Notes under the pieces: model-generated | What the model saw: the letters and a program-made list of their open reading frames with translations, nothing else | What the model was told of the DNA's origin: nothing | Databases searched by the model: none | Source of the DNA: a virus | Reading direction: 5' to 3' (one strand) | Length of the DNA stretch: 35,081 bases | Virus record (IMG/VR): IMGVR_UViG_3300010354_000273 | Span: 1 to 35,081 of that record | Shown here: in pieces, positions 3,110 through 30,581 of the stretch | How the letters are laid out: every line of letters starts with the position of its first letter | How positions within the stretch are numbered: position 1 is the first letter of the stretch | Program-made: the position numbers and the translations under genes

Positions 3110-4764
3110 CAATAACTACCAAATGGATTTGATTGACTAAAATCTAGAATCAGATCTGCCTCTTCTTCTATCTCGTCGTTTTGATCATATTTATCGTAGA
3201 TGTCTCTTTGGTCATATGACTTAATAGAGAATATTGCCGAAGATGCTGCACCAACAAGACTTTCTCCTAAAGTAAATGGTCCATTTACATTAGAAACTTT
3301 CAGAATATTAGTTTGGTCATTCCACTCCTTAACCCTTGCTCTAGTTCCAGAAGATGATGCAACAACTTCTTCATTAAATTGATATGTTCCTATACCAGTG
3401 ATAATTGGTGGATCTGCGATAGTAATTGTTGGTGTAGAACTATATCCAATACCAGGATTTGTGATTCTGATGGCAGTCACTACACCACCAGAAGAAATAA
3501 CAGAAATTGCTGTAGCAGTTGTGAGACCGACATTATTATAGTTTTTATTTGCAGCACTATTGCCAATACTTACTGTTGGTGCAGAAGAGTAACCAGAACC
3601 TGGATCAGTTATACTAATGCCAGTAACAATACCAACAGAATTTGTATGTGCAACACCTTTTGCGGTTGTTCCAACACCAACTGGTGAGGAGAATATTACA
3701 CTGACAGTTGTTGATGGTAAGTAGAAGTTTCCTCCACTAAATACGGTTGCTCCAGTAACTGATCCAATACCATTAATAGTTGCATCAGCTGTTGCTCCTG
3801 CTCCAACTGGAGGCGTGATAGTCACTGTTGGGGCAACTGCATATCCAGAACCAGCAGAGTCGACAGATAGTGAAATAACCCCACTTTGAGTTGGTTCAAT
3901 AGAGCAAGTTGCTGCAGCACCTGTTCCACCACCACCTTCAATATACATTGTTGGTGCAACAGTGTATCCAAAACCAGCATTAGTCAATAAAATTTGCTGT
4001 ATAGATCTAACCCCGGCACGAGTTGTTGTTATTGCTACAGCGGTAGCCGTACTACCTGTAATTGGAGGTGCTTCTGTAAATCTAATAGTTGGTGTCGATG
4101 TATATCCACTACCATCATTATTTAAGAATATCTCTCTCACATATCCACTATTAATTGTGGCAACTGCTTGTGCAGTAACTCCAATTCCAGAGAGAGAAAG
4201 TGAAGTAATAAATCCTTCTTTTTGTATCTGAGTATCAATTTCATTGATGGAAGTATCAATAACTTCGTCTTCATATTCAAAGAGTTCACATTTTAATTGA
4301 TAAACATAATTTTTACCTAATTGATAGAATGGATCTTCGTGTTCAACAAACTTAACTTCAAATAGTCTTTGTCCTAATGGGAAATAAACTAAGTCTCCTT
4401 CTCTTGGTCGAGTAGATAAACTTATTTCAGCGTCATCTTCCGCATCAAGAAACGGTGAAATAAAATCTTCAAATCTTTCTTTTGAGATTGTAATTGTTAA
4501 TTCATCTCTAAGAGACATTCCAAATTTTGTTAGAATATCACCAGACCCAGAATATCCCTCATACGTATTCACATAGGCTTCTATAATATAACTATCATCA
4601 AATTTAGATGATTGTATTTCTCTAAGTATAGTATCTTTTCTTACGATTTTTCTTGGAATGTAAGTTACATCGACGCCATATATTCTCAGTTGCTCGTTAA
4701 TCAACTCCTGAACAAGTCTTTGCTCAGTCTGCGATCCTTGAAGAAAGAAGGGATTAAGTGCCAT
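3109..4764 (-). CDS. gp14: gp14 neck protein with large GSGY-repeat insertion
   Basis: 551 residues, about twice T4 gp14 (256). gp14 and gp13 form the neck that closes the head after packaging and accepts the tail. Residues 1 to about 195 are the family core (M-A-L-N-P-F-F-L-Q-G-S, G-V-D-V-T-Y-I-P-R-K, S-K-F-D-D, Y-V-N-T-Y-E-G-Y-S-G-S-G-D, L-R-D-E-L-T-I-T-I-S-K-E-R-F-E-D-F). The end (D-Q-R-D-I-Y-D...S-N-P-F-G-S-Y) is also family-like. Between about 205 and 455 lie six degenerate repeats of the type G-S-G-Y-x-S-x-P-T-x-x-I. Then comes a F-N-E-E-V-V-A-S-S-S-G-T-R-A...F-T-L-G-E-S-L-V-G-A-A-S-S-A unit, a second kind of module also found in the DUF4815 protein. Two bases separate the gp13 stop from this ATG. 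Confidence 0.9.
   Translation of the reverse strand: MALNPFFLQGSQTEQRLVQELINEQLRIYGVDVTYIPRKIVRKDTILREIQSSKFDDSYIIEAYVNTYEGYSGSGDILTKFGMSLRDELTITISKERFEDFISPFLDAEDDAEISLSTRPREGDLVYFPLGQRLFEVKFVEHEDPFYQLGKNYVYQLKCELFEYEDEVIDTSINEIDTQIQKEGFITSLSLSGIGVTAQAVATINSGYVREIFLNNDGSGYTSTPTIRFTEAPPITGSTATAVAITTTRAGVRSIQQILLTNAGFGYTVAPTMYIEGGGGTGAAATCSIEPTQSGVISLSVDSAGSGYAVAPTVTITPPVGAGATADATINGIGSVTGATVFSGGNFYLPSTTVSVIFSSPVGVGTTAKGVAHTNSVGIVTGISITDPGSGYSSAPTVSIGNSAANKNYNNVGLTTATAISVISSGGVVTAIRITNPGIGYSSTPTITIADPPIITGIGTYQFNEEVVASSSGTRARVKEWNDQTNILKVSNVNGPFTLGESLVGAASSAIFSIKSYDQRDIYDKYDQNDEIEEEADLILDFSQSNPFGSY
3400..4150 (-). repeat. Six degenerate GSGY beta repeats inside gp14
   Basis: The units read D-G-S-G-Y-T-S-T-P-T, A-G-F-G-Y-T-V-A-P-T, A-G-S-G-Y-A-V-A-P-T, G-G-N-F-Y-L-P-S-T-T, P-G-S-G-Y-S-S-A-P-T and P-G-I-G-Y-S-S-T-P-T, each followed by a hydrophobic strand. 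At the DNA level the plus strand shows recurring GTTGGTG-like words near 3428, 3575, 3826, 3949 and 4088, at about 120-150 base spacing, with a diverged copy near 3710. The spacing is irregular and the copies are diverged, consistent with old tandem duplication. Confidence 0.8.
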
Positions 4765-4766
4765 TA

Positions 4767-5848: not shown

Positions 5849-5852
5849 AACT

Positions 5853-8318
5853 TTAGAATGTTCCTCCGTCAATCGTTGTTGTCCAAACAGGTCTGTCAGT
5901 ATATGTAGTAGAGACATTGGTAGGAACAATTGAGATATTAGTTCCTTCCTTCAGAAGATCATTTGTAGTATCAAATGTTCCCTGAACTCCAATTAGAGTA
6001 ACAGTATTGCTGCTCGAAGTGCTGGTTTTTACCATACCATAAGCAGCGGCATTATTTGCCTGAGTAATTTGTTGCCCAGCAGAGAAACTATGAGTTGAAT
6101 CGAGAGTAAGAACAACTTCAGTTACAGCTGTCATAATCTGCGTCGATGTAAACGTCGCAGATGATGGTGCTGTTGTGGATCTTTGTAAACCAGTACTATC
6201 AAAGTAAACAATACCGTGGGTTGAGAAATCTCCAGATTGGTAGTAAATACCTCTAATATCTAAGAATCCTTTAGTTCCAGATACTACACTATTGGTAATG
6301 GATGCATCTGGAATAAATGTCCATCTTCTGCTGTCATCTGCATGAGATTCAAAAACACCACTGGTTGCAATTGAGTTGTCATCAAAACCAAAGAAACCAG
6401 TTTTATTATTGCTAGTTCCACTGCTTGTGTTATAATTGAACGAAACACCTCTGTCAGTGTTTGTATCAAATGCGTGGGTAATTGTTAGTTGAGTTGAAAT
6501 TCCAATCTGGGCAGTTGTATTTGCTGCAATAGATACAATCTTTGTTCCAGAATTGTAATAAAGAATAGTTCTATCTGCAGCAAGTGCAGGAAGACCAGTA
6601 ACACCAGCATTATCAATAACATCACCAGTGTTAATGCCAACAACCGAATCTAAAGTAATTTCTGTAGTTCCAGAACCAACAACTGCCATTACGGTTCTGA
6701 CACTTGTTACATCACCAAGATTCAGAATTGGTTCGTTGACTGTAACAGAACTTGAGTTTACCGTTGTAGTTGTACCATCAACCTGAAGGTCACCCTTAAT
6801 AATAACGGTTCCCTCATTGCTTAATCCATCTGGATATGGGTCGATATAAAGTGTATTTCCATGACCAGATTTGGTTGAGATGATATTGGAACTAATTCCA
6901 ACAGCATCAAACTGGGCACTTCCAACATTTACAAAAGAACCAGTATGATTTATTGTTCCGGTAATTGTGACAGTATCACTATCAGCATTACCGAGTGTAG
7001 TATCACCATCTACTGTTAGATTTTGCTGAATTACTAAATTACCAGCAAAAGTTGTATCTCCACTAACAATAAAATCTGCACCAACATATAAATCACTTGC
7101 AATACCAACACCACCAGCAACTCTTAAAGCACCTGTAGTGGGGCTAGAAGCATCTGTAGTTGCTGCAATAGATACAAATGATGTATTGGTAGTACTTTCA
7201 AAAGTAACGGATGTTGGTGAAGACTGAGCACCAATTGTAACCGTCGTTGCATTTGGTACATCAAAAGTTGCATTGTTAATTGTTGCAATTCCTGTATTTG
7301 CACCAATATCAATTGCAACTCCAGAACCAAATGCATTAATATGGGTTACAGTAGAATCAAAAAGATTTAATGATGTATTATTACTTGTAACATCTCCACC
7401 ATCAATATTTAAATCTCCATCTAAATCAACAGTGGCATTATGAATAGTTGTAATGCCAGTAGTAGTACCAATATCAATGAACTCACCTGCACCTAGAATA
7501 TTTGCGTGAGTTACTGTTGAATCAAAGAGGTTCAGGGTAGAAGTGTTTGATGTTACATCCCCACCATCAATATTTAAATCTCCAGTAATATCAGTATTTC
7601 CACCGACGTTGAGATTTTCTTCAATACCTACACCACCTTCAACTACAAGAGCACCAGTGTCTTTATCGGTTGAAGAAGTTGTATCACTAATTGTAATTTG
7701 AACGCCAGAAGCAAAATTCCAATCAGCACCTTCTACCTGAATCTTATCAGAAGTAGTCTCATCATAATACATTCTGGCATCATTATCTGTGCCAAATTGA
7801 AACTCAATATTATCTGCGACTCTAATGTCCGCAGTTGTTCCAGCGCCACCTCTTTCAAAGAATATTGCATCTTTAGCAGTATCATATGATAGTCTTATAT
7901 CATCACTAGTACCAAATTGCAATTCGTCATCGTCTAAGAACTGAACTCTACCAGTTCCATTCGGAGTAATAGTGATATGACCATCAGTATCTGTAGAGGT
8001 AAGTGCATTACCATCCAATCTTAAATTATCTACGTTCCACTGATCGACTTTTCGGTTCTGATCGACAATCGCTACGAAACCATTTGCCGCAGTCGTTGCG
8101 TTTGCAGCAGATGCAACAGAACCTGGAGTGTTGCTTAAAAGATCTGTGTAGTACTGACCACCAATCAATTGAGGGTTACTGGAACTATCACCAATAAAGA
8201 ATCTTTGTCCTCTATTTGCTTGAGTACCTCCACCAATAGTATACGCTAATTCACCATAATTTAATGTTGATGGTGCAGAAGTACCAGTAGATCTTTTGAC
8301 CCTAATGATACTTGCCAT
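5853..8318 (-). CDS. Repeat-rich tail fibre / virion structural protein
   Basis: 821 residues. The N-terminus (M-A-S-I-I-R-V-K-R-S-T-G-T-S-A-P-S-T-L-N-Y-G-E-L-A-Y) is the attachment-type opening of many phage fibres. The body is beta-rich and repetitive: two F-G-T-x-D-D/N-x-R-x-x-Y-D units (about 135-190), two T-G-A-L-x-V-x-G-G-V-G-I-x...L-x-V-G units (about 223-240 and 400-420), and two 55-residue tandem units starting D-L-N-I-D-G-G-D-V-T-S-N. It has no recognisable enzyme or chaperone domain. It ends T-I-D-G-G-T-F. It occupies the gp10-to-wac region of the T4 map, so it is probably a host-recognition or whisker-like fibre, by position and composition. It follows the 75-residue protein with a strong GGAGGT ribosome binding site embedded in that gene's last codons; the junction is TAATG. 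Confidence 0.82.
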   Translation of the reverse strand: MASIIRVKRSTGTSAPSTLNYGELAYTIGGGTQANRGQRFFIGDSSSNPQLIGGQYYTDLLSNTPGSVASAANATTAANGFVAIVDQNRKVDQWNVDNLRLDGNALTSTDTDGHITITPNGTGRVQFLDDDELQFGTSDDIRLSYDTAKDAIFFERGGAGTTADIRVADNIEFQFGTDNDARMYYDETTSDKIQVEGADWNFASGVQITISDTTSSTDKDTGALVVEGGVGIEENLNVGGNTDITGDLNIDGGDVTSNTSTLNLFDSTVTHANILGAGEFIDIGTTTGITTIHNATVDLDGDLNIDGGDVTSNNTSLNLFDSTVTHINAFGSGVAIDIGANTGIATINNATFDVPNATTVTIGAQSSPTSVTFESTTNTSFVSIAATTDASSPTTGALRVAGGVGIASDLYVGADFIVSGDTTFAGNLVIQQNLTVDGDTTLGNADSDTVTITGTINHTGSFVNVGSAQFDAVGISSNIISTKSGHGNTLYIDPYPDGLSNEGTVIIKGDLQVDGTTTTVNSSSVTVNEPILNLGDVTSVRTVMAVVGSGTTEITLDSVVGINTGDVIDNAGVTGLPALAADRTILYYNSGTKIVSIAANTTAQIGISTQLTITHAFDTNTDRGVSFNYNTSSGTSNNKTGFFGFDDNSIATSGVFESHADDSRRWTFIPDASITNSVVSGTKGFLDIRGIYYQSGDFSTHGIVYFDSTGLQRSTTAPSSATFTSTQIMTAVTEVVLTLDSTHSFSAGQQITQANNAAAYGMVKTSTSSSNTVTLIGVQGTFDTTNDLLKEGTNISIVPTNVSTTYTDRPVWTTTIDGGTF
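7258..7588 (-). repeat. Two 55-residue (165-base) tandem repeats in the fibre
   Basis: Two adjacent units share D-L-N-I-D-G-G-D-V-T-S-N, L-N-L-F-D-S-T-V-T-H, I-D-I-G-x-x-T-G-I and T-I-x-N-A-T in the same register. On the plus strand the word CCACCATCAATATTTAAATC occurs at 7396 and again at 7561, exactly 165 bases apart. The nucleotide similarity indicates a fairly recent duplication, or homogenisation, within the fibre shaft. Confidence 0.88.
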
Positions 8319-8545: not shown

Positions 8546-8620
8546 TAGAGTTTTTTCACTGTTTTTGGGGTTTTCACAAGGAACATATAAAATTCCGTTT
8601 AATGGTCAGGATCTAAAATA

Positions 8621-8628
8621 TATTTATA
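8621..8628 (-). promoter_or_regulatory. T4-type late promoter (TATAAATA)
   Basis: Exact TATAAATA on the minus strand in the 94-base gap before the 75-residue fibre protein gene. T4 late promoters have only this -10-like box, read by the gp55/gp33-modified polymerase. Location in a rare intergenic gap supports function. Confidence 0.75.
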
Positions 8629-8639
8629 CTAGCAGTTTT

Positions 8640-8822: not shown

Positions 8823-9009
8823 TGATTAACTCCATAAGTAAGTTTTTGATCTGCTGAACGTCGGTTTTTAATTCATTAATTTCATCTTTTTGTTTTTGAC
8901 GCTCTTTCTTCATTCTAATATATTGATTATATTCAAATGTATCTGAGTTTACAATTGCCCCAGACTTTTCATCTCTAAAAAGATTTTTATGCCCTTCAAT
9001 TGGTATCAT
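8797..9009 (-). CDS. Small coiled-coil phage protein
   Basis: 70 residues: M-I-P-I-E-G-H-K-N-L-F-R-D-E-K-S-G-A-I-V-N-S-D (a motif recurrent in T4-like phages just downstream of tail genes), followed by a clear coiled coil from about residue 35 (K-Q-K-D-E-I-N-E-L-K-T-D-V-Q-Q-I-K-N-L-L-M-E-L-I). Its ATG overlaps the stop of the 2354-residue gene as TAATG, so it is coupled. It has no enzymatic signature. A role as a small virion or assembly factor is plausible from context only. Confidence 0.82.
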   Translation of the reverse strand: MIPIEGHKNLFRDEKSGAIVNSDTFEYNQYIRMKKERQKQKDEINELKTDVQQIKNLLMELINEHRSRQD

Positions 9010-12000
9010 TATGCTAGTGCAATTGCCCTTAAATCACGGAATCTTGGAGTATAAGATTCATTTGTTCCACTCATAACAATCTTAATTATAAATCCATTAA
9101 ATTGCTCTAGATCATCAGCAGTATACTGATATTCTAAAAATTCATTATCATTACTGGATCTTACAAAAGCATCTGAAGATCCATCATTTAAGTTAGAATT
9201 TATTACAGTATCACCAAAACCATCGCCGTCAATATCAGTTAGGTTATTATAACCAGGGAATAATTCGTAAGTTTGATTAATTTCACTTGAATCGGATCTA
9301 AACAACTTATAAAGAACCCTAAAGTCACTTGAAGCGTCTCTATATGCTGTAAGGAGAACCTTCAAAGAAGTTGCTGGTTTTGCCAGATCAATTCTATTTG
9401 AAATATAAACAGAAGAATGTGGATCATCTGTCAATTGATTAGATCTAGGATCAGTGACATAATTTAAAATTGGTTTATTCAATCTATTTCTGCTAAACAC
9501 AAATGTTGCTGCTTCTGATAAATCAATTACAGGGGAAACATTAGAGTTAGTAGTTTCCATTCTAATACCTAATGTCAACGATTTGTTTCTTGGTAAAGAA
9601 GACAAACGATTAGATTCATTAACTCGTGAGCAAACAATTCTTGGGGTAGAAAATTCGTTTACTTGATTTAAGGAAACATCTTCATAACCCTGATCAATAA
9701 AAGATACTTCAGATCCACCAGCACTTGTTCCAGAAACTGTTCTAATTAATGAGTTTATAGAGGTATTTTCTGGAGAAATAATATTGAACTGTGGGATAAT
9801 TTCACTAAACTGAATATTTTGTGTTGCTCTACAGTTTGGTCCACCAAGAGTACTCTCATTCGTAAACGAAAGCATAGTATCTCCACTTGATTTATCAGAT
9901 CTATCAAATTCTAAATGATATCTATCAATACCTCTTTCAGATCTTAATTTGGAATTAGTTGGCATTGTATGTGAATTATTAATTCTGGTTAATGAAACCC
10001 CATTAATTTCATATTTGTAAATTAGGTCTCCTGTAGAATGATTTCTTATTGTGGTTTCATTTACACCTCTTTCAGAAATGGATAAAGTATTTGAACCAAC
10101 AGAAGTATATTCAATAACCTCCTCATTTACAAGAATATATCCTGGATTTGATGCACTTACTGTAGATCCTTCAAAAGATGTAAAGTTTGAGGTATTTGCA
10201 ATTGATATTGTAGTGTTAGTTGATGTAATATTTGCAGTTAATGCTTCCCCAGAAGTATTTGGAAGAACCCCTCTGATATTTACAATATTACTATTAGAGT
10301 GCATTCCGTGATTATAATGTAAAACTTCAAAAACTTTTCCAGTGTAAAGATCACTTGGAACTACCGATTGACCAAGAGTAACTGTTCCTGCAAGAGAAAC
10401 CTGAGTGCTGCCCTGATAGTATGATAGTACTTGATTATCAGTAAATTCTTCTCCAGAGACATTTGTTAAGAACAATTTGTCTATATTTGGAACTGATTGA
10501 ACACTAATAGTTGCATCACGTCCCTGAGAAACACTACTTGTTGTTATGCCAAGAAGATCTCCAACTCTATATCCAGACCCAGTATTTGCAATAGAAACAG
10601 TAGCTACTCTATTTGATGCGATAGTTACTGTTGCGGTTGCACCACTTCCAGATCCAGTTATTGAGTATAGAGGAACTCCAGAATATGTTCCGTTTGAATA
10701 TCCAACACCAACATTTGTGGTTGAAACGACACCAATGTTTCCACCTACAAACTCTACATATCCAAAAGCATTTCCTTCACCAATCTTGGCACCAGGTTGT
10801 AAAATCGTTCCAAGAGCATATGTCGTAACAATACCAACATTAAGTTTTCTTGGTAATGTTTTGATTGGATTGTTAATCAAAACTGGAACATTTACATCTA
10901 TCTCAGCAAAAGTACTTCCAATAGATAAAGATGGGTTATGGAAGTACGCTGTTCCACTTGTTGAAGTGAAGTTTGCTTTATAAAATTTAAATTTCAGATC
11001 TTCATATACACTTGGAGACCAAATAGATCCGTTTTGAGACTTAAATAGATTTCCACCAACATATTGATTGGAATAAATTGTTTGTTGTGCGTCTGGAAGA
11101 TTTTGAGTTGCTACTGTTGCTTGATTGGATTCCGCAATCCAAACCTTATAATCATCGGAAGATGGGCAAGAAAGTGAAATTGCATATTGCTTATTTGGTT
11201 GTAAATAAATCGGAGATGGGAAAGTAACTTTTGTTGCTGTTGCACCATTAGATGATGTTGTAATACCCGATGGTTCAACTCCAACTCTTGCAAAGTCTTG
11301 AATTATTTTGTCTTTTGGAGTTCCACCAATATCAGTTTCTCTAATTTCAACAAAGACCTTTTCCGTAGAATCTTTTCCACTGAAATAAAGATCAACAGCA
11401 GTCAAGAATCCACCATCATTATCAGTTCTAAATGTTTGTGATAGTGGATCTTTTCTAAGTGCATTTAATGGAAGAGCTGGTGGTGATTTACGAACAACCA
11501 GACTCTCACTATAAACAGAAGCGTTTACAATACCAGATCCATAGAATGTTGTCTCTGTTGATGTGACAGTAGATGAAGTCGAATTTGTTGAACTTGATGA
11601 TAATTTAAATGTTTTAGCACCAACTCTAAAAGTGGTTGATGGTGCTGGATTTTGAAGTGGATTTCTAATGAAGAAACATCCAACTAGATCACCTACAGAA
11701 TCTGTAGTAAGTGATTGTGTTCCAACAGTTGCTTGTGCAGAACTTGTTGCACCAACCAGTTTCATACCAGATGGAGTATATCCATAGAATCTGCCATCAG
11801 CATCATCTGCTAAAGAATAAGTATCAATATTCAATACTGAAGATGATGATGAATAAGCTGATAATGTAGCATTTGCCGAATATGGATTTGTAGAATATGT
11901 TGTTGTTGGATTTGAGTATGATCCAGTTTTGTGATTGTAATTGGCGATTCTAAAAGCTGCTACTTTTATGCCACCAACATATCCATAAACAGTTTCTCCT

Positions 12001-16075: not shown

Positions 16076-17632
16076 TTAGAATTCCAGTATGATTTTAATA
16101 TCTTCTTTTTGACGAGGGTTTCTAGAAACACGAGGTCTATTATCAAGATAGATAATTTCCCCTGATCCTTTATTTATTTCAGGAAGAGATATACCATTAG
16201 TAAATTCTGTTGCAAGATTAACTCTCTTTGTTTCTGTAACAGTTGTGGTTATACCAGTGAATGTTGAATCAATAGATGCACTAAAACTATTTGAAGAAGT
16301 AATTGTACCGCCACTTATACTAAAATTAACTTTTGTCGCCTCAGAAAGAATAGATCTAGAATCTCTCTGATCATATGAACTTTGATTATAATATAAAGAA
16401 CGATCTGTAAAATACTTTAATACTTTTGTCTCAGTATCATATGATGCAATGTATCCAGTTGCAGTTCCAACACCAGTGATAGTTTGATAAATCCTATTAC
16501 CTGGAGTTGCATCTGATGGGTTTGAGACTGATGTTAGTTTCAAACCACCTAGATTTGAGAATTGATTTTCTGTAAAAATTGAAGTTGCCGATCCAATTCT
16601 TGTTGGATTTTTTACAATTCCAATCTGAGAAAATCTAGTATCAAGAGGAAAATCCTTAGTTGAATCATCAAAACGAGAATAAATTAAAACTCTGTCAGTT
16701 CCTAACTCTTCATATAGATTAAATCCATGACCTTTTGATGGTGGAATAATTGGAATCAGGTGTGCAAATTCTGTTGCTCCAGAGTTAATAGTTGATAAAT
16801 CTACCCTACCGTAGGAGTAATTTTTCCCACCTGATGAAACTGTAACATCTGTAATCTTTCCACCGGTGACATCAACAACAACTCTACCACCTTCACCATC
16901 TCCAAGAATATCTAGTTCAGCGTCTGTTGTATTATATCCAGAACCTTGATTTTCAATATAAACTTTTTTGATTTGATTCTCGTTTACTGTAGAGTCTCCA
17001 TTTTCTCTAACAGATTGAATTTGAGCATCGGTTGTTGTTGACCAGTTATTTGGAACTGGAATATATTCAATAGAATCAAATTTAATAATGTCGCTAGGAG
17101 AAACTGTAAATAGGTATTTCCAAATATATCCGTCACCACTTTCACCAGCTCTTGATGGTTCTAGATCAATAAATGATGGTTCGTCTTGAGAAAAATTTCC
17201 AGCAGGATTCGCTACTGAAGATCCATTATCAATACAGATATAAACTCTGTAATCACTATTCATTACATAATAATTTGCATCATATAATCTAGTTGAATTA
17301 GTTTGGGGAGAAGTATTGGATATGCTATAATCATGGCGATACATTTCATAAACTGTACCTTGTCTCCAATCTACTCTTCTTACTAATCTACGAATATCAT
17401 TAGATGTAATTTTTTTACCAAAAATTATAGTATCTTTTACATGATTTAAGTAATTAAAATTGTCAATAGGATTTGGTGTATTTTCATCCCATGATGTTGA
17501 TCTACCAAAACCAACTGCATTTGGATTTGGTAAACTTAAAAATACATAATAAGAATTACTTGGATCACTGACAGATTCTACAAAATTATTCGCATTTAAT
17601 ATCCTAAATTGATCTGTTACAATTGCTGCCAT
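16076..17632 (-). CDS. gp8: gp8 baseplate wedge subunit
   Basis: 518 residues, longer than T4 gp8 (334). gp8 is a dimeric wedge component linking gp7 and gp10 in T4. The N-terminal half carries the family pattern: D-Q-F-R-I-L-N-A, Y-Y-V-F-L-S-L-P, V-D-W-R-Q-G-T-V-Y-E-M-Y-R-H-D-Y, Y-V-M-N-S-D-Y-R-V-Y-I-C-I-D-N, E-S-G-D-G-Y-I-W-K-Y-L-F-T-V-S-P-S-D-I-I-K-F and Y-I-P-V-P. Two glycine-tyrosine repeat units (Q-G-S-G-Y-N-T near 232; G-G-K-N-Y-S-Y-G near 270) lie in the middle, possibly part of an insertion. A consensus late promoter lies 18 bases upstream of the start. No Shine-Dalgarno is visible in the short leader. Confidence 0.9.
   Translation of the reverse strand: MAAIVTDQFRILNANNFVESVSDPSNSYYVFLSLPNPNAVGFGRSTSWDENTPNPIDNFNYLNHVKDTIIFGKKITSNDIRRLVRRVDWRQGTVYEMYRHDYSISNTSPQTNSTRLYDANYYVMNSDYRVYICIDNGSSVANPAGNFSQDEPSFIDLEPSRAGESGDGYIWKYLFTVSPSDIIKFDSIEYIPVPNNWSTTTDAQIQSVRENGDSTVNENQIKKVYIENQGSGYNTTDAELDILGDGEGGRVVVDVTGGKITDVTVSSGGKNYSYGRVDLSTINSGATEFAHLIPIIPPSKGHGFNLYEELGTDRVLIYSRFDDSTKDFPLDTRFSQIGIVKNPTRIGSATSIFTENQFSNLGGLKLTSVSNPSDATPGNRIYQTITGVGTATGYIASYDTETKVLKYFTDRSLYYNQSSYDQRDSRSILSEATKVNFSISGGTITSSNSFSASIDSTFTGITTTVTETKRVNLATEFTNGISLPEINKGSGEIIYLDNRPRVSRNPRQKEDIKIILEF
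16171..16178 (-). promoter_or_regulatory. Candidate late promoter (AATAAATA) within gp8
   Basis: Minus strand AATAAATA about 100 bases upstream of the DUF4815 gene, inside gp8 coding sequence. It fits the NATAAATA form described for cyanophage late promoters. This word is frequent by chance in AT-rich DNA, so support is weak. Confidence 0.3.
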
Positions 17633-17650
17633 CGTGAGAGCTTTTTTCTA

Positions 17651-17658: not shown

Positions 17659-17663
17659 AATGA

Positions 17664-20600
17664 TTATCCAAGGTCTTTTCTTAGTGATCCAGTATCTCTG
17701 AGTCCAAATCCACGTCTCTGTAGTGTTGGGAATGTTGTTAAACCAGAATTTACAGTATATCCAGAAACTGCAACTCCAATAGAAGATGTGGTTCTTTCAA
17801 ATCCAGAGAGTCTTCCCCAAGAGAATCTTCCTGAAATCAAGTTCGGCATTGTGTGAACACCACTAATGTTTGTAGTTGATAATACATTACTTGTTATAAT
17901 TCCTGTCAAATTATCTCTAGTGATTGAGTGAATCTTGTAGATATTATCAGCAAATGTTGATCCTATACCAACCAAAGTAGAATCACTACTATCAATTGAT
18001 GTTACTCCGTGGCCAACTGTAGTATCGAAAACATATATTGGATAATTTTCAACCAAAGAATCAATATCAGAAGTTGAATCATAAAGAACATGGAATGTTA
18101 GAGCAAGAGGATTTCCACCAGTTCCTGTGCTAGTTGTAATTCCTGTAATAATTCCACTAAACCCTTGTACGAACTCAATTTCAGTAATAATTTCGCTAGA
18201 AAGATTTGGTGTTGAAATCGTAATATCTGGTGGATGAGTTGAGGTATAACCAGAACCTGGATTGGAAATACTGGTTAAAGTGACAATGCCTGCAGAAGAA
18301 ACAAACGCCGATCCAATCGCAATAGACTGATTTTGATATTTACCAAAATCAAATGACCTTACAAGAGCAACAGAATTTGATGCATTCTTACTTAATTCAA
18401 TCTTACCATTTGATCCGCTAGAAATTCCAATGACAGTTGTTGAAGTGTCAATAACATTTGGAATGGATTTTAAAGTCTGACCAATCTTAACTAATGATGT
18501 GTCAATGCCAACAATTACATCTGAACCTATTCCCAAATATCCACCTCTTTTCTTAATATCAAATTTGAACACTGTACCAATACCACCAATTGGATTTCCA
18601 ATTTTCAAATCAAGAATTGATCCTGGAACATATCCACTTCCACCATCAAGAACTGAAACCGATGTAATATTTCCTGCAGCAGAAACATTTGCTGTAAACG
18701 CTGCTGAAACTGGATCATTTCCACCTTGAACTAGTAAGGCAGAAAAATCTCTAATACTAATTGCAGATTCATTCTCTTCATAATTAAAGAATTGTGCATT
18801 ATCCAAGAAAATTTCAATGTCTGAGGATGAGAAATCTCTAATAACTTTTGATGTTGGGAATACTAATCCTTCAAGAGAATCTCTCACTTTGGATTGCTCA
18901 TTGTCATTCAATAATAAATCTCTTTTTTGTTTCAACCAATCAACTGGTTTGTAGTTTACACTATCAATACCATCTCCAAGATAAATTCCAGTTTGAACAA
19001 GATCTGATGAAAGAATATCAGAAACAATTCTATTGTCTTGACCAATTGTCTGTGGAATAAAGTCATTATTATTAATTTGTAAAGTATCTCCACGTTTGAT
19101 GGTTTCATTAACATCAACTTCAATACTATCTTGATTTCTTGTTCCTCTATAGAAGAAAATATCTACCTTGTCATTTGATTTTGGTGCTTCTTTGAATGAT
19201 AGTGTTGTTCCTCCAAAGAATTCGTAAGAAACTCCAGGTTCTTGCATTACACCATTTACATAGATCAATAGAATTGAATCAAGATCAATTAAAGATGAAT
19301 CTATATCTGAATTATCTTTTTGGAAACTTAATAATTGATTATTCTTATAAAGAGGGAATCTTGTTCTTGTGCCATTTTGTAGTGAACTAATACTATCAAT
19401 AAAATCAAATTCACCCAATTGCCACGATGCAAATGAATCGACAAATACATCTGTTACTGTGAATTGTAATTCTTCAGCTGGTGAAGGTAATTTTCCATCA
19501 GTTACAAGACCTACAACTTTAAATACATCGCCAACTCTGAAAGAATATCCTGGTTTTGTTATTTCATATGACCTAACTTCAAAGAGTGTAGATCCTATTC
19601 CAGTTGCAGCATAACTTGGTCCAATATCAATTGTCATTGATAATCCAATTCCAGTTTGAGTAGTATTTCCAATTCCTAGTCTAGAAACACCAATCACTGA
19701 AAGATTTTCATATGATGGATCATTTATTTCAAATACAGGATCTGTATATCCAGAACCACCATTGTTAATTGTTAGTGCTAAAGATCCACCAGCTCCAACT
19801 ACAGCCGATATATTAGCGCCAGAACCAGTTGAATCAGAAACTCCAATTGAAACTGCAGTATTGTATCCAGAACCAAAACTTAATTTGCTGTAGTATGGAT
19901 ATGCAGTTCCCTGTCCAACATAAGTATGTGGAATTGTACTAACTCCAATATTAACATTAAATGTAGTTGCAGAAATAATCCCAACAACTGGGAAAACATT
20001 TCCTAATGTTCCATCTGGGAATATTGTGGTTGTTACGCCAATGTGAGCTGATGCACAAGAGAATTCTAAATTTTCAAGATAAACTTCATCCTCAGAAGCA
20101 TCAAATGGATGATTAGTAGAAGTTGTAACTTCAAGTATTCCTGTATTATTATTATAAGTTGAGGTACTAATTTGATATGCCTGACCATAAGTTGGAATAC
20201 CAACAATATTTGTAATTGCACCTCCAGTAACTTCTGCTCTTAGTTTTGCACCAATTAAAGGTGCATACCCTAATCCACCTGTTTGAGCAACAGAAAGAAC
20301 AACACCACCTCTAGGAAGTTGATTTTGGTTGACATCAGAATCTATGATGATAATATCATCAGTATTTGGTCTTCTAACTCCAGTAAATGTTACACTAGAA
20401 ATACCAGTTAAAGGTGTTTCTGCAAAGGCATAGTTATTTCCAATATTATTTGTGGTGTCTGGAGTTTGGAATACGTCATTTATGAAAACTAAATTACTTC
20501 CTGCCTCTAGACCAATAGTGTTTTGTCCTTCTCTATAAACAGTGAACGTTTGTCCAATACCATTAAATTCTAAGGAAATATCATCATAAATTTTATTATT

Positions 20601-23600: not shown

Positions 23601-26600
23601 AACTACAGATGTTACTAAGTCTGAGGATGAATTATTAATTAATAATCCTTCACCCTCAAAGAAAAGACTTGGTACTCTATTGATAGAAAATACTGGATAG
23701 TTTTGATCCTTAACAATTGAATTAAAGGTAGTTTGAATAGTTACTGGAGTTCCAGCATTTTCTGTAAACTCTCCAATATTATACTTTAAAATTGCTGGAT
23801 TTGAGTTTGTAAATTCAACAACTTCAAAGAATTTGTATCCATTATCAGCAGAATTAAATCCTGTTCCTGGAGATGTTATAACTCCAAGAGCATCTGTAAA
23901 ACTTTGTTTTTGTATTCCCTCTACAAAAATTCTATCTCCAACCTCAAATGGTGGGATGATAAATCCATCAATAGGAGGAGTACTAAGTTCACACTCAACT
24001 ATACCGCCAGTATAAGATAAAACTCGTCCAACTTGAACGCCATTGCTATTATTAATTGCAAAAATTCTATGAGAAACATCATCTAGACCTTTTGGTTCTT
24101 CAATAACATCAACGGAAATAATAGTATTTCCTTTAAAGTTGGCAACCAACAATCCACTGTTTACAATAGTATTGGTATATTGATTTACCACAACCAATGA
24201 AGGTGCTGAGATGTAATTTTTACCACCATCAATAACATTTACTCTATTAATTTTTTGTGACCCTTCTAAGGTCAATAGTGTGGGAATATCTGCTTGAGGT
24301 CTTAAAGTCTTATCTGATGGATATTCAAAACCTTCATTTATAATTCTATATTCATTTAATTTTCCAATATTTGATGTATTTGCCATTAAGATTGCATCAG
24401 TACCAACACTCGTTGATGAACCTGTTGATAATCCAACAATTCTTGGAACAATATTGTAATTAAATCCGCCAGAAATAATATTAACATCTTCAATTGGACC
24501 AGATGCTGAAAGTGATGATGTAGAATATTCTAAAGCATCACAATCTTCAAAACTATACACAGTTTTTTCTGGAACTTCTTGAAGAGAAATATTAAATGAT
24601 GTTGAACCTATACCAAAAACTTTATAAGATCCATTGTATAAACTGTCAGTATATAAAATTTCTGAATAATTTTTTACATCAGTATCAGGTTCTAATACAT
24701 CTCCATTCTTTTCAAAAGAATAGTACAACTTAATAGGAGTAGAACTATCATAATTAACGGTAATTGCCGTCGTAACACCAGAAACTATAGTTTTTTGAAT
24801 ATTAAATGTATCCGTAGATCCTGTTGATACATATTCGTTGGTCAAAGAATTGTCATAGTAAAGTTTGAATTCATAATCCAACAGTGAAGAATCTGATACA
24901 TCAATTACAAGTTTATTATTCTTAATAACACTTAATTGTGGGTTAATTGAACTTATTTCTTGATTTGCTCCACCAGAACTTCCAATACTGACAACTATTG
25001 GTGGATTTGCAAATACATCCGAATAAGTTTCTGATAGTTTTATATTATCATCATCAATTCTATAAACATAATATCCGCCAGTTGAAAGACCACTAGAAAT
25101 TAGATCGTATGCGGTATAAAATACCTTTTGACCAGAAACATATCCATGATTTGGAATACTGATTTGATTTGTTGATGTATTAACTCTATCTGAAGTAAAT
25201 CCAACTGGATTTACTAAAAGTTTTTTGTTATATGAATCATACTTTACTCTAATTTTTTCTGAGGACCCTACCCCAACAGAAAGTTTTGGTTTAATTGTTA
25301 ATTCAACAACATCATTATCACTCAAATTATGAACTGTTGATATTGCAACGGTAGATTTAATTCTCTTTGCAGTAGCACTTATCTGATTATAAGTTGTTTC
25401 AAATGAATATTCATAATTATTGGATGCATTAGCAGTAAAGAAAAGTCCATTTGTTGTGGATGTTAATCCAACCTGAGTTGTTAGACCAATGAAATCTTTA
25501 GATTTGTTAATTACATAAACATATTGACTCAATCCAGAGAATGGGACATTAAATGTTGATCCGCCAGAAGTATCTGATGCTGTTAATGCACTCGATGCTA
25601 CGGGAATTGTAAGTAATATTCTCTGATTATTTTTGAATGGATGATTTGGCAAATAGATGCTCTGAGTTGGTACAGAGACTGTTTTTGGAGAATTTCCAAT
25701 GTAGTAATTTACAGAAGTCTCTACACCAGTATTAATACCAACACCAACGGACTCAACTGGATTGAAATAAACTTTAATATTTTTTCTAGAATCAAAATAT
25801 TCACTAGTTAGTGGAATTGTGAAAGAATCTGAGAAATAATCGACAATAGCACCAGAAGTATGCGCTGTTCCGGTAAGACCTCTTTTTACTCTTAAAATAT
25901 TATCAGAATCAAACTTATTAAGAACAGAGAACATTTCTGTCCCAATACCAATTGTTGTGCCAGATCCAACTAGAGAACTAATAGTAGAAACGTATATATC
26001 TGTTACTAAACCAACATTAGATGGAATGTCCTGAACTAATGAGGTTCTATCTGAAGAAACTCCTATTACGTGAGATTTGGAAAGATTTTCTACAAATGTG
26101 GACAAACCAGTAATGGTTATATTGTCTCCAGACAATAAGGAGTGATATCCTGCAGTATGAACTCTTACAGTATTTTTATCTTGCCACTCTATAATAGAAT
26201 TTTCGAAAATATTGTAAGTGGTTTCTATATTATTAATAGAATATCCTTTTATTTTTGCTACTTCTGCAGAAGCACCACCGCCTCCAGTATTTTCATTTTC
26301 AAATGTTAGTAGATTTCCAACCTTATAGTTAGATCCTGGATTTATAATAGATATTGAATTAATTTCTCCATCGGATACAGACTCTACTGTAGTAACCTGA
26401 TTTAAAAACTTATTAGATTCAAATATAAAATCATTGCTAGAATCATCTTCATTTATTCTATATGGGAAAGTATTTCTAACTAATTTTGATCCATTAAAAT
26501 CAAATGATTGATCTAAACTATTTGGTAGTGGTTCTGATTTAAAAGTATCACCAACAAAGTATGGAAAAACTGGTAAAAGTTTTCCACTTGGGAAAGCAGT

Positions 26601-29600
26601 TGCTACTCCAACATAATATGCGTAAGTTCCATTTGGATATTCTGGAGTTTTGGCAAATCTACCATTGTGTTCATCAAGATGTCCTGAATTAGTATACTTA
26701 TAGTCCTCTATAAAGAATCCAGTATCAAATTCATTTATTGGAGGTCTATTATAAACATTAGATGTTGAAGACTCATATCCAGATTCTAAACTTACAATCG
26801 TCGAATTATTATCTTCTGGATCTGAGTATCCAAATGGTCCATATATTGGGTTTCCATCGATGGCCCACCCAATAACTCTAGAATGTCCAGTATCTGATTT
26901 TGGATCTAAAAATTGAACTCCCTCTCTATCTGTAGAATAACCAACCACTCCATATGATAGATTGTCCTCATATTCGGTCAGTATTTCGTCTGAGAATCTA
27001 GAAAAATTATTGACATTTAGATATCTGACAGAAGATTGTAATACTGCGTTTTTCCCAGCAGATATCACAGAAATTGATGTATTTTTATCTTCATAATTAA
27101 CACCTTGGTTGATTATGATTACATCCTTTATAACTCCATTTTGAACTACTGCTCTTAGTTGAGCACCAGATCCAGTTCCATTTACTTTTAGGTTCGGGGC
27201 AGCAGTATAATATTTTCCACCACTCTGAACTTCTACTGCAATTATTCTTCCTGCTTTTAAAATCGGTTTTAATTCGGCACCAACACCATTTCTGATCGTT
27301 ATTGACGGATCTTTATGGAAGTTTATAATTGTAGATCCATAATTAGTCCCCTTTTCATAAAGGTATGCATCAACAATCTCCCCTCTAACTTGAGGAGTTG
27401 CAACAATTGTTCCAATTCCAGTATATTCTGCATTAACAACAATTTCTATAGGAGGGTATTCAAAAATTTGATATCCTTGTCCAGTCGATTCAAATTTTAC
27501 AAATTTTCTTCTATTAAAGTCAGTTGTTGCAGCACCAATTGCATCTGCCAATTGGAAATTGGAATTATCTAATTTAATAATGCGATATTGGTTGGAAGAT
27601 GAGAGACCAACAATGTTTGAAGTTTCATAAGAATAATTAATTAGATCACCATCTTTAAATCCATGGTTTTCAAAAGTAACTTTATCAAGTTGAGTAGATA
27701 TTCCAGTTGGTTTTACACGTAATTTTCTATTTTCATATCCACTTCCAGAATTGAGAACTTTTATTTCGGAAATTACGTTTTTTGGTTCATATAATCTAAA
27801 TTTATGAGTTCCTCCAGTGTTAATTGTTGTGAAACCAACAGTATTAATACCTGCTAGATAATCTTGCTCAGTCTCATATAGGTAAATTGATCTTGTGTTT
27901 ATAATTTGTGGATAATAAACTGATCCATTAACAAGATATCTTTCTTGGTCAGTATTTGAGAATTTAAATGATCCTATCCCTAAAGGTAAATTACCTGCTG
28001 GATTATATACAATTCTTTCGCCGTCTTGTAAGTTATGTGGACCATTAAATGTAATGGTTTCATTAGAAATATCTACACCACCAGTTGCACCAATTCCTGC
28101 TTGATTGCCATTGAATTCAATTTCTCTATATTGCTTTGACAATAAAGCTTCTAATTCTGCACCAACACCATTTCCACCAGAAAGAGTTACAGAGAGAACT
28201 CTATTAATGTTAAAGTCTTGAGGGTCCACAATAACACTTTTTAAAGATCCTCTAACGACAGGTTGTGCTAGTGCCGTTGTTCCAAAACCAACTGGATCTG
28301 ATATGACAATTGTTGGAGGATTAATTACATCATAATCTTCCCCACCATTGTAAATTTTTAGAGAATCAAGTGGTCCATAGTAGATTCTATCATTTGATTT
28401 ATAGTTTATAATATCAACACCATTGATCAGTTTTCCAATTGCTCCAACTTCAGTCGGAACGTTAGAATCTGCTTTTGTATTTGGTTCTAATGGGAATTTT
28501 AGTAATGATTTTTTAGGATATATTGATTTATTGTAATGCTGTAATAAAGTAAAACTATGATTTGAAGATTCTCCATATCTACCAAACTCAACAAAACTTT
28601 GTGTTGCAATAAATGATCTTGCATTATAAAGTCTTATCTTATTCTTTCTTCCAGAATCCTCCAGAACTTCAACATAATATGTTTGTCCAAAGACAAGATT
28701 TGGAAATACCTGATCATCTCCATGATAAACTACAGCATCACCAGTGATAAAAGGAACGTCATCATTGAATGATAGAACTGAATATAAATCTGTTAATGGA
28801 TTATAATTTTGGAAAATATCATCAAGTACTGAGGTTGGTGAGACGCTAATATTTGCTGTAGATAATTTTTTAGTTATTTGATAACTTGGAAGAGAGTTTG
28901 ATGCGACATACATATACGCATCATTTTCAATATAAGTGTTTTGTACGTTTGCAAGAATGCTAGAATTGCTTAATGTAGTGTTTAATGAAGAAGCGTAATT
29001 ATATCTTCTTCTAATGCTTAATCTTCTATCAGAATTGACACCAGTAATATTTTTATTTAAAAATACAACTCTTGGTAGTGTTTGTTCTGGTCTATTTGTT
29101 ATTGAAGTTACAATCGCATTTTCTAATACAATATTCTCAGAATTTCTATCTAAAATATCTACAATATCACCGACTTTTAAACTAGACTTATCTGGTACTT
29201 CAAAAAGAATTAATTGATTGTTGGTAAAGGATTCAATTTCATATCTAGATCTAGTATTATAGATCCAAGTATTAAATGAAAACTGCTTTTTGTCTTTATT
29301 ATCATTTACAATTTTTTGACCAAGATTTTTTACAGAAAAATTATCACCCTCTAAAAGACGAGTAAAATTATCAACATCCTCAATACCAGACAAAACTCCA
29401 GTAATCCTTAATTCAACTTTTTTACTCAGATTTCCATCTTCATATCCATAAATGATGTCATTAGATCTAATATCTGATGATGTAGATATTGCAGTTGTTA
29501 CGCCTTCACATCCAAAAAACTGATTAATACTTTTATCAGTATATGTAATTGTATTTGATCCAGAAATCAAAGTTCCAGATTCTGCAAATCCTATTGTACT

Positions 29601-30581
29601 ATCTACTGTAATTACAGATGATCCAATAGGTACATTATCAGAAACAATAGTTTTAGGAGTAATTTTAAAGGTTCCTTCGACTAAACTCTTTTCATCATAT
29701 CCAGAAAAGAGTTGTATTTTATAAAAAGTTTTATTAGATCTTGTTATAATTTCAACTTCAGAGACTGGTCCAGAAGCAGTGTTATCAATACTTCTAATTA
29801 CTTGCCCGACTAATTTATTAGGATCTCCAGAAATTACTTCTGTTACTAATACCTCTCTACGAATAAACTCTGCATCAGAAGGTTTTAGAAGAAAATCTTC
29901 AAGATTTACAACCTTTGGTGTAATACCATAAAGAACATTAAATAAGATTCTGAAAGATTCATCTGTTCCTTTGGAAAGATAAAAACTACGAGCGTTCTTT
30001 ATAAAATTATTTACATCAAGAGTTGGTACAAAATCAACATCTTCAAATCCTGGTGCAAGAAGATATTTTAGTTTCTTATAAAATTCTTTTAGAAATAGAG
30101 CACTTAAATTATGAACTCTTGTCTCATTTGAATGTGAGGACGCTAGAGTTGATTCAAAAATAAGTTCTTCTGGATTCGTCTGGTTTCTATAACTTGATAT
30201 TCCACTAAAACCACGTACACAACCAGTGAAACTATTGGTTGTAATACCAGTGTATGTGATTATTTCATTATTAATTTTGAATAGACCATACTGACTTGGA
30301 AATCCTTTTGTCGACTCAACATAAATTGTGGAATCGTTAGTGGAAACCGAGTTAGTTAAAGTAGTGATCCCTACAATAACTTCTGGTGTTAGATTGTTTA
30401 AATTTAGGTATTGATCTAAATTTTCAGCAACATCAATTGGTCCTCCCTGGAATTCCTGGGAGATATAATATTGTTTTAGAAAATCTACAGTTTTTGGTGA
30501 CTCGCTAAGTAAAAATTCTGGTAACTGATTCTCAATAATTTGCTGTACTTTTACTCTAGCGTCAAAACCAGTTGTAATCAT
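17664..30581 (-). CDS. 4305-residue virion structural protein in gp7 position, with YHYH-like domain
   Basis: One uninterrupted 12.9 kb frame. Its start has a GAGGAG ribosome binding site and lies 9 bases after gp6. The first ~280 residues (E-N-Q-L-P-E-F-L-L-S-E-S-P-K-T-V-D-F-L-K-Q-Y-Y; A-R-S-F-Y-L-S-K-G-T-D-E-S-F-R-I-L-F) look like a conserved anchor. I infer this is the functional counterpart of T4 gp7 (1032 residues, baseplate wedge) from position only. Residues about 1220-1345 form a YHYH-like domain: G-W-A-I-D-G-N-P-I-Y-G-P-F-G-Y, L-D-E-H-N-G-R-F, T-P-E-Y-P-N-G-T-Y-A-Y-Y, F-P-Y-F-V-G. Glycine-tyrosine beta repeats occur near 747, 945, 1075, 1120, 1420, 2042, 2120, 3437, 3572, 3610, 3980 and 4112. 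RG-GT-H modules occur near 80-140, 330, 1500 and 3220. It shows no transmembrane segment or protease/lysozyme motif. Confidence 0.85.
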   Translation of the reverse strand: MITTGFDARVKVQQIIENQLPEFLLSESPKTVDFLKQYYISQEFQGGPIDVAENLDQYLNLNNLTPEVIVGITTLTNSVSTNDSTIYVESTKGFPSQYGLFKINNEIITYTGITTNSFTGCVRGFSGISSYRNQTNPEELIFESTLASSHSNETRVHNLSALFLKEFYKKLKYLLAPGFEDVDFVPTLDVNNFIKNARSFYLSKGTDESFRILFNVLYGITPKVVNLEDFLLKPSDAEFIRREVLVTEVISGDPNKLVGQVIRSIDNTASGPVSEVEIITRSNKTFYKIQLFSGYDEKSLVEGTFKITPKTIVSDNVPIGSSVITVDSTIGFAESGTLISGSNTITYTDKSINQFFGCEGVTTAISTSSDIRSNDIIYGYEDGNLSKKVELRITGVLSGIEDVDNFTRLLEGDNFSVKNLGQKIVNDNKDKKQFSFNTWIYNTRSRYEIESFTNNQLILFEVPDKSSLKVGDIVDILDRNSENIVLENAIVTSITNRPEQTLPRVVFLNKNITGVNSDRRLSIRRRYNYASSLNTTLSNSSILANVQNTYIENDAYMYVASNSLPSYQITKKLSTANISVSPTSVLDDIFQNYNPLTDLYSVLSFNDDVPFITGDAVVYHGDDQVFPNLVFGQTYYVEVLEDSGRKNKIRLYNARSFIATQSFVEFGRYGESSNHSFTLLQHYNKSIYPKKSLLKFPLEPNTKADSNVPTEVGAIGKLINGVDIINYKSNDRIYYGPLDSLKIYNGGEDYDVINPPTIVISDPVGFGTTALAQPVVRGSLKSVIVDPQDFNINRVLSVTLSGGNGVGAELEALLSKQYREIEFNGNQAGIGATGGVDISNETITFNGPHNLQDGERIVYNPAGNLPLGIGSFKFSNTDQERYLVNGSVYYPQIINTRSIYLYETEQDYLAGINTVGFTTINTGGTHKFRLYEPKNVISEIKVLNSGSGYENRKLRVKPTGISTQLDKVTFENHGFKDGDLINYSYETSNIVGLSSSNQYRIIKLDNSNFQLADAIGAATTDFNRRKFVKFESTGQGYQIFEYPPIEIVVNAEYTGIGTIVATPQVRGEIVDAYLYEKGTNYGSTIINFHKDPSITIRNGVGAELKPILKAGRIIAVEVQSGGKYYTAAPNLKVNGTGSGAQLRAVVQNGVIKDVIIINQGVNYEDKNTSISVISAGKNAVLQSSVRYLNVNNFSRFSDEILTEYEDNLSYGVVGYSTDREGVQFLDPKSDTGHSRVIGWAIDGNPIYGPFGYSDPEDNNSTIVSLESGYESSTSNVYNRPPINEFDTGFFIEDYKYTNSGHLDEHNGRFAKTPEYPNGTYAYYVGVATAFPSGKLLPVFPYFVGDTFKSEPLPNSLDQSFDFNGSKLVRNTFPYRINEDDSSNDFIFESNKFLNQVTTVESVSDGEINSISIINPGSNYKVGNLLTFENENTGGGGASAEVAKIKGYSINNIETTYNIFENSIIEWQDKNTVRVHTAGYHSLLSGDNITITGLSTFVENLSKSHVIGVSSDRTSLVQDIPSNVGLVTDIYVSTISSLVGSGTTIGIGTEMFSVLNKFDSDNILRVKRGLTGTAHTSGAIVDYFSDSFTIPLTSEYFDSRKNIKVYFNPVESVGVGINTGVETSVNYYIGNSPKTVSVPTQSIYLPNHPFKNNQRILLTIPVASSALTASDTSGGSTFNVPFSGLSQYVYVINKSKDFIGLTTQVGLTSTTNGLFFTANASNNYEYSFETTYNQISATAKRIKSTVAISTVHNLSDNDVVELTIKPKLSVGVGSSEKIRVKYDSYNKKLLVNPVGFTSDRVNTSTNQISIPNHGYVSGQKVFYTAYDLISSGLSTGGYYVYRIDDDNIKLSETYSDVFANPPIVVSIGSSGGANQEISSINPQLSVIKNNKLVIDVSDSSLLDYEFKLYYDNSLTNEYVSTGSTDTFNIQKTIVSGVTTAITVNYDSSTPIKLYYSFEKNGDVLEPDTDVKNYSEILYTDSLYNGSYKVFGIGSTSFNISLQEVPEKTVYSFEDCDALEYSTSSLSASGPIEDVNIISGGFNYNIVPRIVGLSTGSSTSVGTDAILMANTSNIGKLNEYRIINEGFEYPSDKTLRPQADIPTLLTLEGSQKINRVNVIDGGKNYISAPSLVVVNQYTNTIVNSGLLVANFKGNTIISVDVIEEPKGLDDVSHRIFAINNSNGVQVGRVLSYTGGIVECELSTPPIDGFIIPPFEVGDRIFVEGIQKQSFTDALGVITSPGTGFNSADNGYKFFEVVEFTNSNPAILKYNIGEFTENAGTPVTIQTTFNSIVKDQNYPVFSINRVPSLFFEGEGLLINNSSSDLVTSVVRSNFIKVNGDSEIKIGDIIKGNNSGNYATINNVYKFENRFNINYSNRREFDWKDDIGKLNFDFQVIPDNDYYQNLSYTIKSPIEFVKMIDKVNNLVHPSGMKNFADTEIVSTSSVSIGSSISLLPVLDFISERRVDTISNFDLVLDYDPSSNSSRFITFKNKKLSDYIECRTNRVLQIDDISGRFSSSEFNKNIFTDTVEYPITDFYSKFLIQIIDEDKQSSQLSELVVLNNFDNTYTLNKVDLFTDQKLGDFSGEFGDVGDPVLRFTPANPNDFNYNLKIYRESFSTETTSIGIGFTEIGFTRLSSRTENVGPASGSGLLGISTTIFQALSSQYDTVYVSAHILDTTTNEANYFEVAGHYDGQDTHLAEFYFDTKNTNVSGGYLGTFGLNVSGGVISLTFSNENSNNNLRIKTKTVGIGSTSVGVGTFRYLVDGQIPGTERTARMDSQYEITSGISTVLSFDSVIDSSLKSIIKVSAGSTVAVHNLFVVADQLRTSIQQAPFITIGSETGIGTFGSEMDGTNVIIKFYPDSEYSSDNIVVQSFNQFIYSDIDEFNIPDSLVYGNAIENITNAFYGSINDFGKDKLDFDLNYNRIPIFEKTFNPNTTSTLNRETGVFSIDNHFFETGEELIYTPDSTLIGINPQPMGIGETIVAGLFFTADFIAGFSTVTGIAATTGISTDTLIFGQSVPSSTTKITGISTDYTFFVGNVVSGGSTVITGVGNTTILTVGAGIFSGDNTGLGTITSIGINSITSTETIPEGSNRIYYSTDQSFALTLDGVSIGSTFRKTYSTGITTDICPSTVYAIRISKDQFKITGTAGGSGVGFTFTSVGGGNRHKLEMKKKLEKSLITVDGVTQYPLMYTPLTYTLQYNQPTIGVGVTFLGLSGISSIRPKDILKIDNEYLNIKNVGLGTTSSGPITGIGTIPIIEVSRGFVGSSATTHTDGSVARIYKGAYNIVGNKIHFTEAPDGKGNNDRLNSSNLALPKSSFNGRVYLRKDYTNNKIYDDISLEFNGIGQTFTVYREGQNTIGLEAGSNLVFINDVFQTPDTTNNIGNNYAFAETPLTGISSVTFTGVRRPNTDDIIIIDSDVNQNQLPRGGVVLSVAQTGGLGYAPLIGAKLRAEVTGGAITNIVGIPTYGQAYQISTSTYNNNTGILEVTTSTNHPFDASEDEVYLENLEFSCASAHIGVTTTIFPDGTLGNVFPVVGIISATTFNVNIGVSTIPHTYVGQGTAYPYYSKLSFGSGYNTAVSIGVSDSTGSGANISAVVGAGGSLALTINNGGSGYTDPVFEINDPSYENLSVIGVSRLGIGNTTQTGIGLSMTIDIGPSYAATGIGSTLFEVRSYEITKPGYSFRVGDVFKVVGLVTDGKLPSPAEELQFTVTDVFVDSFASWQLGEFDFIDSISSLQNGTRTRFPLYKNNQLLSFQKDNSDIDSSLIDLDSILLIYVNGVMQEPGVSYEFFGGTTLSFKEAPKSNDKVDIFFYRGTRNQDSIEVDVNETIKRGDTLQINNNDFIPQTIGQDNRIVSDILSSDLVQTGIYLGDGIDSVNYKPVDWLKQKRDLLLNDNEQSKVRDSLEGLVFPTSKVIRDFSSSDIEIFLDNAQFFNYEENESAISIRDFSALLVQGGNDPVSAAFTANVSAAGNITSVSVLDGGSGYVPGSILDLKIGNPIGGIGTVFKFDIKKRGGYLGIGSDVIVGIDTSLVKIGQTLKSIPNVIDTSTTVIGISSGSNGKIELSKNASNSVALVRSFDFGKYQNQSIAIGSAFVSSAGIVTLTSISNPGSGYTSTHPPDITISTPNLSSEIITEIEFVQGFSGIITGITTSTGTGGNPLALTFHVLYDSTSDIDSLVENYPIYVFDTTVGHGVTSIDSSDSTLVGIGSTFADNIYKIHSITRDNLTGIITSNVLSTTNISGVHTMPNLISGRFSWGRLSGFERTTSSIGVAVSGYTVNSGLTTFPTLQRRGFGLRDTGSLRKDLG

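Follow-up and report, generated by a model that had tools for sequence, protein, structure and literature searches.

In gp18, the tail sheath protein of phage T4, domain I is a six-stranded barrel with a helix that is inserted in domain II (PMC3004832), and it forms the outermost part of the sheath (PMC8570332). PMC9230969 suggests that inserted sheath domains aid adhesion or stability and are non-essential for sheath formation, and it carries the proposal that the Ig-like domains of phages bind weakly to the host surface. Marine T4-like phages are abundant, and their neck and baseplate proteins are far larger than those of T4 (about four times for the protein in the gp7 slot), with the extra mass unnamed. 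Here we describe a repeated glycine-tyrosine unit, GxGY, in four such proteins. A literature search for this unit found no description, most subscription journals being outside its reach.

The DNA analyzed, referred to as the window, is the whole 35,081-base stretch of IMGVR_UViG_3300010354_000273, a Kyanoviridae-like T4 relative (myovirus). Its minus-strand genes encode gp25, gp6, a giant protein in the gp7 slot, gp8, a DUF4815 ("VrlC") protein, a fibre-like protein, gp13, gp14, gp15, and gp16, in an order that matches P-SSM2 and S-SRM01. The closest named relatives of its gp14 are those of S-SRM01 (55%) and P-SSM2 (51%). The genes that concern us are as follows:

3109-4764, minus strand, gp14
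5853-8318, minus strand, fibre-like ORF
9009-16073, minus strand, DUF4815 protein
16076-17632, minus strand, gp8
17664-30581, minus strand, giant protein in the gp7 slot, 4305 residues

A relative of the DUF4815 protein has been solved: ORF65 (DUF4815), in entry 9euf of the Staphylococcus phage phi812 baseplate (E 3.1e-38). Within the giant lies a YHYH domain (Pfam PF14240, E 7.8e-26; residues 1229-1330, window 26592-26897), and the fibre-like ORF contains two 165-nt tandem copies at window 7257-7586 that are 70% identical.

Our main reading, to which we give a probability of roughly 0.68 and which draws on structure models, is that the units act in pairs, each pair making a surface barrel like gp18 domain I in these virion proteins.

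One unit family in four virion proteins

The initial annotation had placed six units in gp14, two in gp8, two in the DUF4815 protein, and at least twelve in the giant, and these placements proved correct. In gp14, the six units occupy residues 209-457 and are preceded by a half unit; the pairs in gp8 and the DUF4815 protein lie at residues 221-298 and about 1780-1857, respectively. A one-genome search of the giant returned ten units at E<0.002, and profile-profile tiles together with reading give about twelve or more, some of them single or degenerate. The units and the evidence for each are:

3394..4185, minus strand, gp14 array, a leading strand and six GxGY units, residues 194-457, taken as three two-unit domains (HMM; AF2 model; even unit numbers in orthologs)
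4012..4140, minus strand, gp14 unit 1, residues 209-251 (HMM)
3886..4002, minus strand, gp14 unit 2, residues 255-293 (HMM; units 1-2 align to T4 gp18 99-188)
3763..3879, minus strand, gp14 unit 3, residues 296-334 (HMM)
3631..3759, minus strand, gp14 unit 4, residues 336-378 (HMM)
3484..3627, minus strand, gp14 unit 5, residues 380-427 (HMM)
3394..3480, minus strand, gp14 unit 6, residues 429-457, without the last strand (HMM and AF2 model)
10617..10736, minus strand, DUF4815 unit 1, residues 1780-1819 (profile-profile 37.6 over 1781-1854)
10503..10616, minus strand, DUF4815 unit 2, residues 1820-1857 (profile-profile; link to T4 gp18 100-122, probability 80)
16856..16972, minus strand, gp8 unit 1, residues 221-259 (profile-profile 28.2 over 221-273; model strands)
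16739..16855, minus strand, gp8 unit 2, residues 260-298 (profile-profile; pair 222-298 aligns to T4 gp18 99-188)
28152..28367, minus strand, giant units, residues 739-810, the second degenerate (HMM and profile-profile)
27702..27773, minus strand, giant unit, partial, residues 937-960 (weak HMM match)
27003..27494, minus strand, four giant units in a row, residues 1030-1193 (profile-profile 31-43)
26247..26363, minus strand, giant unit, residues 1407-1445 (HMM)
24177..24494, minus strand, giant units, residues 2030-2135 (profile-profile 34-39)
19713..19874, minus strand, giant units, residues 3570-3623 (HMM and profile-profile)
18558..18704, minus strand, giant unit, residues 3960-4008 (profile-profile 44)
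18183..18326, minus strand, giant unit, residues 4086-4133 (HMM and profile-profile)

Scanning the proteome with a profile of the gp14 units had been put forward as the way to link these copies. The six window units alone were too weak for this and gave hints only, whereas a profile enlarged with orthologs (444 gp14 units, drawn from the window and from 95 orthologs, both environmental and named) picked out four domains in the giant and one in gp8 that exceed the best background from 50 local shuffles of the window proteome (7.7 bits for the gp8 domain, against a shuffle maximum of 5.8). Profile-profile comparison of tiles with the gp14-only profile joined all of the proteins to one family (gp8 221-273, 28.2; DUF4815 1781-1854, 37.6; giant, up to 44.3), while reversed tiles reached at most 18.1. 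As had been claimed, units are missing from gp13, gp6, and gp25; these three, gp15, gp16, and two other window proteins scored 12.5 or less. In ortholog rows, the gp14-trained profile matched 76/76 giant proteins, 35/88 gp8, and 5/119 DUF4815 proteins, and none of 98 gp13, 84 gp15, 6 gp6, or 5 gp25 rows, the last two absences resting on few orthologs. The DUF4815 protein and gp8 are tied securely to the family only through profile-profile comparison and structure.

Glycine- and tyrosine-rich sequence might also arise by convergence or low complexity, with no common origin; the units are rich in G, T, and S, and many are just 25-40% identical to the first gp14 unit. We regard this as highly improbable: shuffled and reversed controls were clean (the converged unit profile had no match in reversed sequences), other G/T/S-rich proteins of the window, such as that at 5853-8318, do not score, and the strand order is the same in the models of gp14 and gp8. 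We conclude that the units in the four proteins are one homologous module of common ancestry.

The scaffolds that carry the module are unrelated, as the initial annotation had held. T4 gp14 aligns to residues 3-174 only of its window counterpart, and T4 gp8 to residues 3-194 and 485-518 only; because these alignments flank the units and do not cross them, the units sit in added parts of both proteins. They are thus inserted in, or added to, another domain, with T4 aligning on one or both sides. A search of the T4 genome with the unit profile found no unit at E≤0.01, and whole-genome searches at the same threshold gave 8-13 matches in each of six cyanophages and three in Pelagibacter phage HTVC008M. 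Further virion genes of these relatives bear the unit: a P-SSM2 tail fibre, an S-SRM01 gp5-like hub protein and another baseplate protein, a B23 fibre, and two virion proteins of S-SCSM1. Pfam models had no match to the unit, and several unrelated structural families (PHROG 460, 708, 701, and 2885) have profiles that match the repeat part of gp14. In public annotation, the gp7-slot protein of HTVC008M (L166, 33435-36485) is named head closure Hc2, and the DUF4815 protein of P-TIM68 (L168, 21840-29714) is named a putative neck protein. Both names probably stem from shared units.

Two other modules were observed. One, of about 65 residues, is found in gp15 (245-314, window 2171-2380), in the DUF4815 protein (about 1952-2018), and in the giant (77-127, 1535-1583, and 3204-3277); among gp15 orthologs, it is present in 48 and missing from 34, and the tree shows at least four changes. 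The other, of "GE.v.G..Sga" type, lies at the gp14 C-terminus (457-520, window 3205-3396); the DUF4815 protein matches it twice (484-524 and 860-913, approximately) and gp8 weakly (381-408), with a reversed control that reaches 21.6. With several small modules common to virion proteins, marine virion proteins look like mosaics.

Pairing of units and a probable fold like that of T4 gp18 domain I

Unit numbers in gp14 are 4, 6, 8, or 12 and change in steps of two. By HMM, 48 of 85 full-length gp14 proteins have four units, 31 have six, and six have seven; in each of these six, one further divergent unit (GGYDF-like or GGNYL) was read by eye, giving eight. One gp14 (L041) scored six and has eight on reading, and the 956-residue gp14 of IMGVR_UViG_3300025102_002390 (L209) has 11 units by HMM and one divergent unit, about twelve in all; the latter protein carries an extra module between its fifth and sixth pairs. 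Counts are even in 79/85 proteins without any reading by eye, which is the soft spot of this comparison, and the 85 rows are related rather than 85 independent trials. On the gp14 tree, the unit number changes at least eight times, with one row probably mis-scored. Two tandem units within about 80-90 residues are found in gp8 (221-298) and in the DUF4815 protein (1780-1857), and the even gp14 numbers agree with this; in the giant, some units are single or degenerate, as listed above.

The AF2 model of gp14 shows three strands per unit, with pLDDT mostly 82-94 over the array (10-residue block means). In the gp8 model, the strands follow the same order with lower confidence, and the pair has six of them (223-228, 237-244, 247-256, 259-270, 275-277, and 291-295). 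Whole-chain mean pLDDT is modest (69 and 58 for the two models). Using VIA-align, gp14 210-291 superposed on T4 gp18 99-188 (3foa) with Z 6.4, rmsd 3.0, and 19% identity over 75 residues; gp8 222-298 superposed on the same segment (3foa/3j2m) with Z 5.5-5.6, and gp8 221-297 on residues 98-187 of a Klebsiella phage sheath (9ev2) with Z 5.5. All of these Z values are below 8, and 5.5-6.4 is a range that unrelated models reach, so each is weak alone; they count only because the same segment recurs from two separately made models (overall rmsd 2.7-3.1 over 74-75 residues). Other structural searches were set aside: Foldseek of the whole gp14 model against the PDB was dominated by the core and by large low-scoring proteins, and the eIF2-gamma and F1-ATPase barrels matched by VIA draw on widely separated stretches of gp14 (183-519) and were not counted as unit matches. 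Solved structures searched by sequence with gp14, alone or as an alignment, returned T4 gp14 for the core and nothing for the repeats.

Sequence profiles point to the same part of gp18, whose domain I contains two turns, PGSNY and TGKNY. When gp18 tiles were compared profile-to-profile, the peaks of all four unit templates fell within residues 100-122; the DUF4815 template scores 31.7 there with probability 80 (reversed, 11.7 or less), and the probabilities of the others are 22 (gp8) and 5-9 (gp14 and pooled). A single-profile search with gp18 domain I found nothing significant in the window, and a profile search of one Kyanoviridae sheath detected no unit. Neither the models nor the profiles decide the matter by themselves; taken together, they suggest that a pair of units probably shares its fold with gp18 domain I, and we infer homology between the two.

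In the structure that we propose, the unit would make up one half of a small beta-barrel, inserted as a domain. Three strands would come from each unit, in the order strand 1, GxGY turn, short strand at the P-T-x-hydrophobic motif, and strand 3, and two units would close into one six-stranded barrel of the gp18 domain I kind, closure being predicted. Three such barrels would be inserted in gp14, one in gp8, one in the DUF4815 protein, and some at several places in the giant. The units could instead stack, in any number, as a continuous beta-solenoid or beta-meander array, with the likeness to gp18 domain I a matter of chance. Tandem units of near-constant length and regular strands would suit such an array, as would gp18 Z-scores that fall short of what unrelated models often attain, but an array of this kind does not account for gp14 unit numbers of 4, 6, 8, or 12 in steps of two, for exactly two units in gp8 and the DUF4815 protein, or for two separate models that match the same 90-residue gp18 segment where sequence profiles also peak. 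We consider it unlikely and favour paired barrels.

The barrels may serve as a non-essential outer decoration of the neck and baseplate, and the surface they add would make weak contacts with the host envelope or pack against neighbours. We favour this putative function because of the analogy with inserted sheath domains (PMC9230969).

Possible movement between genes and exchange between gp14 alleles

The initial annotation had taken the spread of the units as the mark of a mobile module moved by recombination between virion genes. A homologous module in inserts on unrelated scaffolds bears out the first part of this claim; the second part, transfer between virion genes as an ongoing process, was not supported because copies cluster by protein. 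In a nearest-neighbour comparison of 136 units from 13 phages, the closest unit came from the same protein of another phage for 70/78 giant units and 40/52 gp14 units, and similarity between gp14 and giant units within one phage was not above the between-phage level (permutation p 0.94). Copies therefore group by protein across phages and not by phage, the question that a repeat phylogeny had been meant to settle. No long stretch of DNA is shared between genes of the window. From the clustering, the permutation result, and this lack of shared DNA in the window, we conclude that gene-to-gene movement was not recent. The presence of one family in four and more genes, and best matches in the other protein of another phage for 10/52 gp14 and 6/78 giant units, could be taken to mean that units are still moving between different virion genes of one genome. 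This is very unlikely given that sharing a phage does not make gp14 and giant units more similar and that the sole recent transfer found is from gp14 to gp14. As the simplest reading of the distribution, the spread between virion genes looks old.

Among gp14 alleles, a two-unit cassette is exchanged. One gp14 (L035) has an extra pair that is missing from L027, a close sister (the two cores are 88-98% identical in protein windows as far as residue 180). The cassette is 88.7% identical in DNA over 282 nt to that of a third allele, L033, and outside it the identity between L035 and L033 is 67.5% in units 1-4, 69.9% in the C-terminus, and 79.3% in the core. We found nine cassette loci, all of them in gp14; several lie on contigs that had already supplied loci. 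Horizontal transfer of whole units was thus found among gp14 alleles only.

Comparison with known systems

On balance, we lean toward an undescribed superfamily of two-unit barrels that would link the outer sheath domain of T4 to the neck, baseplate, and fibre proteins of marine T4-like phages, which are giant and swollen with repeats. Gain, loss, and exchange would go by pairs, making the number of pairs an evolving trait of the phage surface. If much of the extra mass of these proteins is a paired barrel already solved in T4, modelling and annotation become possible and doubtful protein names could be corrected, and the number of gp14 pairs would be a testable trait.

Several described systems resemble this one in part. 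The PHROG families 460, 708, 701, and 2885 are whole-protein families in which the GxGY unit is not defined as a module. The tandem BACON repeats of crAssphage likewise form a tandem domain array in a phage protein, described as a hotspot of evolution (PMC6949934); BACON is a different domain. Like the Ig-like domains of phage virions, to which the initial annotation had compared them, the units would be optional small beta domains that occur on many unrelated scaffolds and are horizontally exchanged (PMC9230969). Unlike Ig-like domains, the strand pattern of a GxGY pair is two repeats of three strands, and Ig-like Pfam families had no match in gp14, gp8, the DUF4815 protein, or the giant. The nearest likeness is to T4 gp18 domain I (PDB 3foa, 3j2m; residues 98-188), which also has about 90 residues, two GxNY-type turns, and six strands, is inserted in another domain, aligns without interruption to unit pairs in both models, and has its profile match at 100-122. 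It differs in being a single copy in the sheath, and its helix is mostly missing from the gp14 and gp8 units. Where T4 has this domain in its sheath, the marine phages carry the unit in neck, baseplate, and fibre genes.
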